Shown in pieces: positions 4,330 through 6,830 of a DNA stretch of 11,386 bases. The DNA comes from an uncultured Nitrososphaerales archaeon. GTDB lineage: Archaea; Thermoproteota; Nitrososphaeria; Nitrososphaerales; JAAOZN01. Within the stretch, counting starts at the first letter, position 1; every line of letters starts with the position of its first letter. The translations under genes were made by a program, and so were the position numbers. The stretch is taken from assembly GCA_938029515.1 (NCBI GenBank), contig CALJAQ010000183.1:1-11386 (forward strand), written 5' to 3'. Below the pieces are notes generated by a model, which saw only the letters and a program-made list of their open reading frames with translations, was not told the origin of the DNA and searched no databases.

Positions 4330-5481
4330 TTACAACCTTTTCGCCAGAGGGCTGAATGAGCGAAGCCTGTTAACAACTTTAGCCAATATCTCTGCTGCTA
4401 AATCTACTTCATTTTGTGTAGTCATCTTAGAGAGGCTGAGTCTCATAGAGCCGTGTGCATCCTCGTGTGTACCCCCTATGGCTGTTATGACGTGACTAGG
4501 TTCAAGCCTCTGGCTGTAGCAGGCTGAGCCTGTGTTGCATACTAAGCCGTGCATCTCAGCTTGCAGTAGAAGTGCCTCACCTTCAACGTATTTGAATGTG
4601 ACGTTCACGTTGTGGCATACCCTTCTTTCCCCTCTAGGGCCGTTGAGTTTTGAAGCCTCAATCTCCAGAAGCTTATTGATAAGCCTATCTCTTAATATGC
4701 GCATCCTTTCCGCGTCTTCTCGCGTAGCTCTCTTAACCGCTTCTGCGAAGCCTACTATACCTGGCACATTCTGGCTCCCAGCTCTCAGACCCTTCTCTCT
4801 ACCATCACCCTCTATTAGCGGCTGCAGAGCCACACCCTCCCTGACATAAAGCGCACCTACACCCTTCGGTCCGTGTATGAGGTGTGAAGTTATGGACATG
4901 AGGTCTATGTTCATGGCTTCCACATCTATACTTTCTTTAGTGAATGATTGCGCCGCATCTGTATGGAAGAGAACACCCTTTTCTCTGCAGAGTTCGCCTA
5001 TCACTTTAATATCTTGTATGGTTCCTATCTCTTGGTTAGCGTGCTGGATAGATGCTAGGCTCGCCCCATTTAGGCTGCTTTGAAGATTATCGAGCTTAAC
5101 GAAACCTTCAGAATCGACTGGTAAGACTTCAACTTCATAACCTAGCTTCCTTAGGTTGAGCGCGGTGTCTAAAACAGACTTATGCTCTATCGCTGATGTG
5201 ACGACCTTCTTTTTCTTGTATAACTGGTGTTGAACAACGCCTTTTAGTGCAAGGTTGTTGCTTTCTGTAGCGCCTGAGGTGAATACGATTTCGCTTGGTT
5301 CGGCGCCTATCTTCTCGGCTATAACCGCTCTAGCTTTTTCAACAGCCTCAGTAGCCTCTTCTTGCATACTGTGCCCGAACTCCCCTCCAGGTAAACCGAT
5401 CTTCTCAACCATATAATCTAAGACTATCTTCGCAACCTCTGGCTCGACCGCTGTAGTTTCGGCGTTATCTAAGTAGATCAT
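4330..5481 (-). CDS. NifS/IscS-family cysteine desulfurase homologue lacking the PLP-binding lysine
   Basis: By family this is a class V aminotransferase-fold cysteine desulfurase (383 residues, normal length), which in active members takes sulfur from cysteine for Fe-S assembly. Fold motifs are intact: YLDNAETT near the start, FTSGATESNN (67-76), SAIEHKSVLD (96-105), HTDAAQ (173-178), GPKGVGALYVREG (204-216), and the catalytic-loop Cys C321 in NTGSACYS. The Schiff-base Lys, expected right after the conserved His (H200) as in E. coli IscS H205-K206, is Leu (L201, codon CTC). The Asn that contacts PLP (IscS N155) is Gln (Q150). The protein is therefore unlikely to do normal PLP chemistry. The A. 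fulgidus IscS, also lacking this Lys, is a known parallel as I recall. The downstream gene encodes IscU, suggesting the pair still forms a complex. The ATG is preceded by a TATA-like element about 32 bp upstream. Confidence 0.93.
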   Translation of the reverse strand: MIYLDNAETTAVEPEVAKIVLDYMVEKIGLPGGEFGHSMQEEATEAVEKARAVIAEKIGAEPSEIVFTSGATESNNLALKGVVQHQLYKKKKVVTSAIEHKSVLDTALNLRKLGYEVEVLPVDSEGFVKLDNLQSSLNGASLASIQHANQEIGTIQDIKVIGELCREKGVLFHTDAAQSFTKESIDVEAMNIDLMSITSHLIHGPKGVGALYVREGVALQPLIEGDGREKGLRAGSQNVPGIVGFAEAVKRATREDAERMRILRDRLINKLLEIEASKLNGPRGERRVCHNVNVTFKYVEGEALLLQAEMHGLVCNTGSACYSQRLEPSHVITAIGGTHEDAHGSMRLSLSKMTTQNEVDLAAEILAKVVNRLRSFSPLAKRL

Positions 5482-5522: not shown

Positions 5523-6395
5523 CTAGAAGGCTGGGTGTATGCCAAAGAGCCTACCTATGAGGTCTCCGAAGAGGAAGGTCGCGAAGGCGGTGCCTAGGGT
5601 TAGTGCTACGCTTTCAGCAAACTCCTTTGGGAAGCTTCTTTCGCCAACTACAGAGCCGTAGAGTGTGAAGAAGAATATCAGCGCTATAGCTAAGGTTATT
5701 GAGCCGCTGAACGCGTAGATCATGGCTTCAGTTACGAAGTAAGGTGAAGCTAAAAGGGTGACCGCAGCTAGGTAAGCTACGCCTGTGCTTAACGCTGAAG
5801 GGACAGGGTTGCTTGATGTGTGCTGCTTAGCTTGTAGATACGCCGCGGAGCCCATCGAAATCGCTGCTGCGAACCCTACAACCAACCCAGCTATGCCTGC
5901 TATAAGTGTGGAGCTGGTTACACCTAAGAATCCTGCGTGCACACCAGTTATCTCAACTATTGCGTCAGCAAGCCCTAAGACTATGAAGCTGAAGTATCTG
6001 ACTATACGCTCGTCTATTTGGCTCATAAACGCCTTCTCATGCCGCTCTTCATCCTCTATTATTCGTATAAGAGTGGTTCTGTCTTCACCGGTGAGTTCTT
6101 CTACAGTCTTCTTGTATCCGTCGATGACCTTCTTTTCGTGTCTTTCAAGCAACTTTAGCGTGAACATAAGCCCAAATATGGATCTAAGTATGACCATTTT
6201 CGATACCGATGCTTTACTGACCTTAGGCTTATATCCTCCAGCCAGCCTGCTCCAAAATAGGTAATGTCCAAGCTCTGCTTTAGAGAGTTCTTCTAATACA
6301 CTCTTTCTACCAACGTGTTTTTCACGCTTAGCCAACTCTAGGTATAGTTGGTAATCTGCATATTCGTCTTCACAGAAACGCTTGAACTTCTCCGT
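5523..6395 (-). CDS. Ferritin-like/VIT1 membrane iron (or Mn) transporter, MbfA-like, with apparent ACG start
   Basis: The protein joins a rubrerythrin/ferritin-like domain to a CCC1/VIT1 transporter, the layout of bacterial MbfA iron exporters. It probably moves Fe2+ or Mn2+ across the membrane. From the ACG at 6395 it is 290 residues. The ferritin-like helices occupy about 1-125, with a Glu in EDEYADYQLY (9-11), E41-x2-H44, Glu around 84-87 and E116-x2-H119. The VIT1 part follows with about five helices, starting FIVLGLADAIVEITGV and including AISMGSAAYL. The first ATG/GTG/TTG in frame is the TTG at 6335, which would delete the first ferritin helix and its metal-binding Glu. Upstream of that, GAGGTG at 6403-6408 is a strong Shine-Dalgarno site, and the codon 7 nt after it is ACG. 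Only five other sense codons separate ACG from the osmC stop. Family assignment is firm; the start is inferred, and a base error for ATG is possible. Confidence 0.88.
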   Translation of the reverse strand, partial: TEKFKRFCEDEYADYQLYLELAKREKHVGRKSVLEELSKAELGHYLFWSRLAGGYKPKVSKASVSKMVILRSIFGLMFTLKLLERHEKKVIDGYKKTVEELTGEDRTTLIRIIEDEERHEKAFMSQIDERIVRYFSFIVLGLADAIVEITGVHAGFLGVTSSTLIAGIAGLVVGFAAAISMGSAAYLQAKQHTSSNPVPSALSTGVAYLAAVTLLASPYFVTEAMIYAFSGSITLAIALIFFFTLYGSVVGERSFPKEFAESVALTLGTAFATFLFGDLIGRLFGIHPAF

Positions 6396-6410: not shown

Positions 6411-6830
6411 CTAAGCTTCTTTTACCTCGTAGCCTGTGGTTATCTTAGAGGCTCCTCTTAAATTTGCCATAACAGAGCAGTACCTTTCCTCAGATAAGCG
6501 TATGGCCCTTTTGACTGCTTCTTCGCTTAGGGCATTACCCTTCAAAAGATACTTTAATCTAATCTCGGTGTAATATCGTGGATGCTCGTCAGCCCTATCG
6601 CCTTCAGCGTAGACCTCAAGTGAGGATAGGTTCTGCCGCTGCCTTCTTAAGATGTTGATTATGTCTATGGCTGTGCAGCCTGCGAGAGCTATCAGAAGCA
6701 ACTTCATAGGTGTGAATCCTGCGCCTTCTCCTCCTAGATCTTTGGGGAGATCCATTACAACGCTATGTCCTTCACCATCTACCCCCTTAAGTCTAAAGCC
6801 TTCTATCATCTCCACTCTGATAGCTGGCAT
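6411..6830 (-). CDS. OsmC/Ohr-family peroxiredoxin-like protein
   Basis: OsmC/Ohr proteins are small dimeric thiol peroxidases that reduce organic or hydrogen peroxides through two Cys. This one has 139 residues, normal length. The first Cys, C52, lies in the central helix motif LAGCTAIDIINIL, and the second, C118, in SEERYCSVMANLRG; both are in the family positions. FTPMKLLLIALAGC corresponds to the common P-x-x-LL-x-AL-x-GC block. The ATG at 6830 sits almost exactly where transcription should begin from the CTTTTATA box at 6853-6860, so the mRNA is probably leaderless. The ferritin-like/VIT1 gene follows 15 nt downstream, linking peroxide removal to iron handling. Which peroxide it prefers cannot be read from sequence. 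Confidence 0.93.
   Translation of the reverse strand: MPAIRVEMIEGFRLKGVDGEGHSVVMDLPKDLGGEGAGFTPMKLLLIALAGCTAIDIINILRRQRQNLSSLEVYAEGDRADEHPRYYTEIRLKYLLKGNALSEEAVKRAIRLSEERYCSVMANLRGASKITTGYEVKEA

Follow-up and report, generated by a model that had tools for sequence, protein, structure and literature searches.

The window analysed in this study, a stretch of 11,386 nucleotides (contig CALJAQ010000183.1) from an uncultured Nitrososphaerales archaeon, encodes a class I IscS/NifS homolog in which the lysine residue that forms the Schiff base with PLP is replaced by leucine. It lies in a clade of IscS homologs where the loss of this lysine is old and fixed. The protein can probably no longer form an internal aldimine with PLP and would hence be no normal desulfurase; its probable role is that of a docking partner of the IscU-PF01883 scaffold, with Cys321 serving as a cluster ligand or as a relay of sulfane sulfur. 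The genes and active-site residues are listed in Table 1.

Table 1. Genes and active-site residues of the window; fractions give the residue's occurrence among the best 120 of the 7791 proteins in the database set.
Feature	Positions	Strand	Remark
IscU scaffold with C-terminal PF01883 (FeS_assembly_P), 223 aa	3610..4281	-	Directly downstream of the IscS gene
Lys-less IscS/NifS homolog, 383 aa	4330..5481	-	Class I cysteine desulfurase fold
Arg347 (position of E. coli Arg354)	4441..4443	-	120/120; replaced in the A. fulgidus type
Cys321, mobile loop (NTGSACYSQ)	4519..4521	-	120/120
His203 (Tyr or Asn in many IscS)	4873..4875	-	120/120; also in Lys-bearing relatives
Codon 201, CTC = Leu (position of the PLP Schiff-base lysine)	4879..4881	-	Leu in 119, Met in 1
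Gln178 (position of E. coli Gln183)	4948..4950	-	119/120
Asp175 (position of E. coli Asp180, which pairs with the PLP pyridine N)	4957..4959	-	120/120
Gln150 (position of E. coli IscS Asn155)	5032..5034	-	118/120; also in Lys-bearing relatives
His100 (position of E. coli His104)	5182..5184	-	111/120
VIT1-family membrane protein, upstream neighbor	5523..6335	-	Also in G002; unit membership uncertain
OsmC-family protein	6411..6830	-	Same order in G002; unit membership uncertain

Active Site of the Window Protein

The window protein matched the aminotransferase class V fold over its full length. In the active-site motif S-x-x-HK-x-x-GPKG, the lysine was absent and Leu201 was found instead, confirming what an earlier sequence-only reading of the window had claimed for this codon. 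No lysine newly gained within the motif was found. The pocket residues His100, Asp175, Gln178 and Arg347, the last of which we take to be the arginine that binds the substrate carboxylate, were all present, as was the cysteine of the mobile loop. The same reading had described Cys321, Asp175, His100 and the overall fold as intact, which was borne out in the window protein and, for Cys321 and Asp175, in all of the best 120 of the 7791 database proteins; 9 of these 120 had lost His100 besides the lysine. Thr72 and His200 were also found in all 120.

The scores of the window protein were below the curated NCBIfam cut-offs for IscS/NifS, which were 530.75 for TIGR03402 (score 415.9), 643.2 for TIGR02006 (386.8) and 304 for NF002806 (283.8). 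These cut-offs are a weak test; L273, a Lys-bearing relative that is 56% identical to the window protein and has the same pocket, passes NF002806 only. An assignment to SufS (class II) was rejected, with 137.9 bits for TIGR01979 against a cut-off of 475.1. The AlphaFold model made from 89 rows was good, with pLDDT values below 50 in the loop 320–324, and the one made from 22 rows was poor (pLDDT 71.8).

The earlier reading had also regarded Gln150, which replaces a PLP-contacting asparagine, as part of the inactivation. This part had to be dropped, because Gln150 was found in 70 Lys-bearing proteins as well. Since Gln150 and His203 both occur together with the lysine in that family, neither is a consequence of the lysine loss.

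Conservation of the Lysine Loss

Leu201 was common to both other genomes of the window's genus, where the identities were 90 and 85%, and was also found in two genomes of another family, where the identities were about 64%. The database set comprised 7791 proteins with E ≤ 1e-60, and the PLP lysine was absent from all of the best 120, the window's own included, of which 119 had Leu and 1 had Met. Even without the lysine, purifying selection acts on the window gene, as shown by a dN/dS of 0.046 in the comparison with G001; the pair of the window and G002 was saturated. From the single window read alone, a decaying inactive gene or an error of sequencing or assembly would be conceivable. The lysine is likewise replaced in four other genomes and in 119 other listed database proteins (118 with Leu and 1 with Met), which, together with the low dN/dS, rules out both and leaves them a negligible probability, in agreement with the earlier view that this gene is not decaying.

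Phylogeny of the Lys-Less IscS Homologs

In the first tree, built from 103 rows with the trait columns masked, the Leu clade of the window contained 24 rows and was supported at 100/100. Its sister was the Thr clade (95/82); the Asp clade stood apart. A search based on L273 newly listed 119 proteins, L273's own included, of which 101 possessed the lysine and 18 lacked it. The 18 Lys-less proteins had Leu (13), Met (2), Val (1), Asn (1) or Arg (1) instead. All of these 18 and part of the 101 Lys-bearing proteins were taken into a second tree of 134 rows, which was built by a quick method. The Leu clade of the window was recovered with an SH-aLRT of 99. The sequence-only reading had raised the question of whether Leu201 is shared by a clade, and the lysine was absent from all 25 rows of this well supported one. 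The Thr clade joined Lys-bearing proteins (89) in the second tree, so that the sister relationship of the Leu and Thr clades was lost with the wider sampling of this quick tree. IscS of A. fulgidus was separate from the window's clade in both trees.

At least 11 changes between presence and absence of the lysine were needed on the second tree, and the starred branches force at least 3. A single origin of all Lys-less IscS was rejected by the AU test (p = 2e-46 for 57 Lys-less rows as one clade), in which this group was defined with knowledge of an earlier tree. Given the number of changes and this rejection, the PLP lysine was lost repeatedly; its regain would be unlikely. The AU test gave p = 0.0513 for the Leu, Thr and Asp types as one clade and p = 0.456 for one loss shared by the Leu clade and a small R100 L/M group (P0288, P0291, P0292 and P0294), so that neither grouping was formally rejected.

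The Thr type is characterized by Asp100, Gln150, His178 and Thr201 and includes P0214 of M. acetivorans. Among the 120 proteins listed for this type, Asp100 and His178 were found in all, and position 201 was Thr in 117, Ile in 2 and Asn in 1. The Asp type, to which A. fulgidus IscS belongs, has Asn200-Asp201, Ala or Val at position 178 and Leu, Val, Gln or Glu at position 347. The Gln type consisted of one protein, L237. Two proteins from Rokubacteria (L084 and L103) also have Leu at the position of the PLP lysine, together with Gln100 and Asn150. At a distance of about 5 kb from each is another IscS, which has the lysine. The first tree placed both Leu proteins with Lys-bearing IscS of bacteria and far from the clade of the window. 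Finally, an IscS type with the lysine but with His150, Asp178 and Leu347 was observed (L043 and L044, from G008 and G022, L031, L037 and L055), and this type is possibly not a normal desulfurase either.

IscU and the Gene Neighborhood

The iscU gene is 48 bp downstream of the window's iscS gene, provided that the called TTG start is right, and the three cysteines and the aspartate of the window's IscU, as read from the sequence, were present. An IscU ORF of 200–260 aa followed the iscS gene at 5 of 5 loci of the Leu clade and 19 of 19 loci of the Thr clade, at 1 of 25 Asp-type loci and at none of the 119 Lys-bearing loci with an intact pocket. PF01883 was found in all 9 IscU tested, which were the 5 of the Leu clade and 4 of the 19 of the Thr clade. 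The Lys-bearing exception was L273, which was fetched later and stands outside the count of 119; it has a long IscU with PF01883 downstream. The IscS-IscU island of this locus (L273:375-5847), whose IscS bears the lysine, also contains the genes for TusA and for sulfite/nitrite reductase-like, JAB-domain and ThiF-like proteins.

The gene for an iron transporter-like VIT1 protein adjoins iscS in the window as well as in G002 (L040:2896-3780). The longer copy of G002 also matched rubrerythrin, and in both cases the next gene encodes an OsmC-family protein. On a contig of ANME-2 (L083:7124-8509), an Asp-type IscS is accompanied by an IscU that forms one protein with a pyridine nucleotide-disulfide oxidoreductase (NifU_N + PF07992), and this fusion is perhaps a persulfide reductase.

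TusA and DsrE2 Near iscS Genes

The tusA gene was found within 1.5 kb of iscS at 14 of 19 Thr-type loci, 19 of 23 Asp-type loci and the one Gln-type locus, and was absent within this distance at the remaining 5 Thr-type and 4 Asp-type loci. It was found at none of 120 Lys-bearing loci with an intact pocket, or at 1 of 121 with the later-fetched L273, where tusA is on the opposite strand behind the sulfite-reductase-like gene. DsrE2 genes were near iscS at 14 of 19 Thr-type, 12 of 23 Asp-type, 0 of 1 Gln-type and 0 of 120 Lys-bearing intact-pocket loci. HMM searches found neither gene beside iscS at the 5 loci of the window's Leu clade, and neither was found beside the two Lys-less loci of Rokubacteria. 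Both genes were beside 4 of the 5 Lys-keeping genes with His150, Asp178 and Leu347.

The same comparison was made within the 7 genomes that provided both a Lys-less and a Lys-bearing locus. TusA and DsrE2 genes accompanied the Lys-less copy alone in 4 of them (G347, G348, G349 and G353). In the other 3, which were G005 and the Rokubacteria G351 and G352, they were beside neither copy; carriers beside the Lys-bearing copy only were seen in none of the 7.

The HMMs used for these counts were built in this study. The counts exclude duplicates, rows that covered fewer than 300 aligned residues and rows with less than 800 bp upstream; the last comprised 2 of the 25 rows of the Asp type, 6 of the 126 Lys-bearing rows with an intact pocket and 1 of the 8 with an altered one. 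In the Lys-bearing intact class, 47 of the 126 rows came from individual genomes and the rest from a mostly bacterial scan. The HMMs recovered TusA at 16 of 16 and DsrE2 at 12 of 12 control loci, with these controls included among the training loci; seed-only HMMs recovered the same 16 and 12, of which 3 and 2 were seed genes, and gave the same TusA counts. Fisher's exact test on the carrier counts gave 4e-27, which applies to loci that are not phylogenetically independent and is not a probability of origin.

The window's own genome contains two tusA-dsrE2 pairs elsewhere. The pair at L274:692-2380 is beside the gene for a PLP-dependent (PALP) enzyme, and that at L182:12-2185 is beside the gene for a sulfide-dehydrogenase-like flavoprotein. 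A small ORF near the latter appeared ArsR-like by eye.

Other Desulfurases and Scaffolds

The sequence-only reading had pointed to a second, Lys-containing NifS or SufS as something to look for in the genome. A Lys-bearing SufS-like gene was found in relatives; none was found in the genome of the window itself, whose completeness is 72%. The genomes G001, G002, G008 and G022 all contain a Lys-bearing SufS-like gene, and the SufS of G001 and G008 scored 581 and 589 bits, respectively, against an NCBIfam cut-off of 475. G008 and G022 also possess a second class I copy with the lysine (L043 and L044). In G001 (98% complete) and G002 (99%), which belong to the window's genus, the search at E ≤ 1e-20 found only the SufS-like gene besides the Lys-less one.

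Two matches to the SufB/D core (PF01458) were found in each of G000, G001 and G002, and none was found in G008, G022, G346 and G349. The completeness of G008 is 99% and that of G022 is 95%, so that IscU-type scaffolds may be all that these two have.

Proposed Function and Its Alternatives

The lysine of IscS forms the aldimine with PLP and is required for activity; in the accessible text of PMC9978102, the K206A variant of E. coli IscS has no desulfurase activity and retains some PLP, which agrees with the earlier statement that this lysine is essential for PLP catalysis. Its loss would thus prevent formation of the PLP internal aldimine and, with it, Schiff-base cysteine desulfuration. The Lys-less IscS would be kept as the protein with which the neighboring IscU-PF01883 scaffold docks. 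Its Cys321 may be a ligand of the [2Fe-2S] cluster during assembly, a role described for IscS-IscU of A. fulgidus, or may carry sulfane sulfur from TusA/DsrE2-type carriers, SufS or free sulfide. From the observations above we infer a window protein without desulfurase activity that binds IscU, as well as its route of sulfur. A flow of sulfur from TusA via IscS to IscU would be sterically thinkable, since TusA and IscU of E. coli dock around the same loop cysteine of IscS (accessible text of PMC2854127).

The sequence-only reading had proposed a Cys-supplying partner of IscU that receives its sulfur from elsewhere. The adjacent iscU gene and the TusA/DsrE2 genes beside other Lys-less clades fit this idea, but none of the 5 loci of the window's own clade has these carriers beside iscS, and its sulfur route is therefore borrowed from the related clades. 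Moreover, the long IscU and a nearby TusA do not require the lysine loss, because the Lys-bearing L273 has both. The pocket also counts against this reading. Most of it is nearly invariant, and a protein that provides only a cysteine ligand should not need Arg347; the near-invariance of Asp175, Gln178, His200 and Arg347 in the Leu clade is left unexplained by a role as ligand or relay. The pocket of this clade possibly holds PLP, cysteine or another ligand. A Cys-supplying IscU partner is the best explanation and probably the right one.

In one alternative, the protein would still hold PLP, either without a covalent bond or in the external aldimine that PLP forms with cysteine, and would perform slow or different PLP chemistry with another residue as base, or present PLP-cysteine to a partner. 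This would account for Thr72, Asp175, His200 and Arg347 in all of the best 120 of 7791 database proteins, Gln178 in 119 and His100 in 111. It would also be consistent with the bound PLP and the accumulated intermediates of E. coli K206A in the accessible text of PMC9978102 and with the accessible part of PMC9769115, where the legend of a figure mentions PLP for the A. fulgidus complex 4EB5. However, the same K206A variant had no desulfurase activity, His100 was also lost in 9 of these 120 proteins and no lysine was newly gained in the motif, which makes this alternative unlikely. The kept pocket, which a pure Cys-ligand role does not directly explain, would also suit another acceptor or chemistry, such as binding of sulfide or polysulfide in the old substrate pocket, with IscU as a mere genomic neighbor. 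Given that iscU is directly next to iscS at 5 of 5 Leu-clade loci and that a long IscU follows at 19 of 19 Thr-clade loci, this is quite improbable. The Lys-less protein could also be the silent subunit of a heterodimer with a Lys-bearing paralog, similar to serine palmitoyltransferase, in which a Lys-less subunit pairs with a Lys-bearing one. The second class I copies of G008 and G022 would provide such a paralog, but these copies themselves have His150, Asp178 and Leu347, and in the nearly complete G001 and G002 only a SufS-like gene was found at E ≤ 1e-20 besides the Lys-less one. A heterodimer is thus very unlikely.

A wider scheme, which we put forward tentatively as the less probable outcome, is a cysteine-independent ISC system that evolved several times, mainly in archaea. 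The Lys-less IscS would act as a relay in it, with sulfur passing from TusA/DsrE2 or another sulfane-sulfur source to the loop cysteine, opposite to the flow from IscS to TusA in E. coli, and then to IscU, and the Leu-clade site would still hold PLP, cysteine or polysulfide without catalysis, or serve a similar task.

Distribution and Significance

The Leu clade is rare among the sampled genomes, despite at least 119 other protein clusters of this clade in the protein database, where the names include two of Bathyarchaeia/Bathyarchaeota and two of Nitrososphaerales. A census by DNA pattern matched 2 of 299 genomes of the phylum (the window's own and G203), 0 of 201 genomes of the class of G350 and 6 of 250 genomes of the order (the five known ones and G203). 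The match in G203 (C1:1743912-1743934, L060), a genome of the same order, is to a HLIHGPKG-type DNA pattern and may be due to chance. When P0111 was used as a protein query, 2 of the 398 genomes of the phylum that were searched had a match at E ≤ 1e-115, namely the window's own and G284, which is the source of L273 and keeps the lysine. No member of the Leu clade was among the matches listed (80 loci) from a scan of genome contigs with generic motifs.

Lys-less IscS as such is already known from A. fulgidus (Asp199) and from IscS1 of M. acetivorans. What is new is a Leu clade of its own in which the pocket is almost complete apart from the lysine, the repeated loss of the lysine, the long IscU in the Leu and Thr clades and the TusA beside other Lys-less clades. 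A literature search of titles and the openings of abstracts, with most subscription papers outside its reach, found no Leu-type Lys-less IscS and no TusA/DsrE2 beside a Lys-less IscS.

These results bear on how anaerobic archaea bring sulfur into Fe-S clusters. The proteins of the Leu clade, where named, are called 'cysteine desulfurase', a name that can be taken to show that the sulfur comes from cysteine, which would be wrong for the whole clade. The repeated loss of the lysine with the loop cysteine and IscU kept, together with TusA/DsrE2 beside other Lys-less clades but at only 1 of 121 Lys-bearing loci with an intact pocket, provides a testable sequence rule for distinguishing cysteine-fed from sulfane-sulfur-fed ISC systems.

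Comparison with Known Systems

The minimal archaeal pair of IscS and IscU is also represented by the MIS system (MisS/MisU), as far as the accessible text of PMC12442378 describes it. Sulfide, not cysteine, is used by at least one methanogen (accessible text of PMC7585200). Different from the window protein, IscS of E. coli (1p3w; 3lvl with IscU; 3lvj with TusA) is active, has Lys206 and passes sulfur from IscS to TusA. The group of L273 and P0241, of which some members are named Bathyarchaeota, shares Gln150 and His203 with the window protein but keeps the lysine (HKIHGPKG); a long IscU with PF01883 was downstream in the one locus read.

IscS1/IscU1 of M. acetivorans (MA0808/MA0807) are similar to the window's pair in the Lys-less class I IscS, Gln150, His203 and the long IscU. 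IscS1 lacks the PLP lysine according to the accessible text of PMC7585200, and Table 1 of this source gives 24.2 kDa for IscU1 and about 14 kDa for IscU2 and IscU3, in line with the long IscU of the Thr clade. P0214 is probably this IscS1, judging from its name and the STGSACFS motif. Different from the window protein, the Thr type has Thr201 (117 of the 120 proteins listed) as well as Asp100 and His178 (all 120), and DsrE2 and TusA genes adjoin at 14 of 19 loci.

The best solved relatives by sequence were the A. fulgidus IscS structures 4r5f, titled as the D199K mutant, and 4eb5. This IscS (4eb5, 4eb7 and 4hvk; D199K in 4r5f) is about 45% identical to the window protein and was solved in complex with IscU. 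The earlier statement that it lacks the lysine and forms a complex with IscU was correct, with Asp in 4eb5, and in the accessible text of PMC7585200 the protein is inactive because its lysine is Asp, and supplies a cysteine ligand to the cluster of IscU. Similar to the window protein, it has the class I fold, a replaced lysine (Asp199), the loop cysteine and an adjacent IscU. The two differ in the replacing residue, which is Asp in SN-D of A. fulgidus and Leu in SH-L of the window. Moreover, the A. fulgidus type usually has a short IscU, with an ORF of 200–260 aa at only 1 of 25 loci, and has lost Gln178 and Arg347, whereas the window's clade keeps both.
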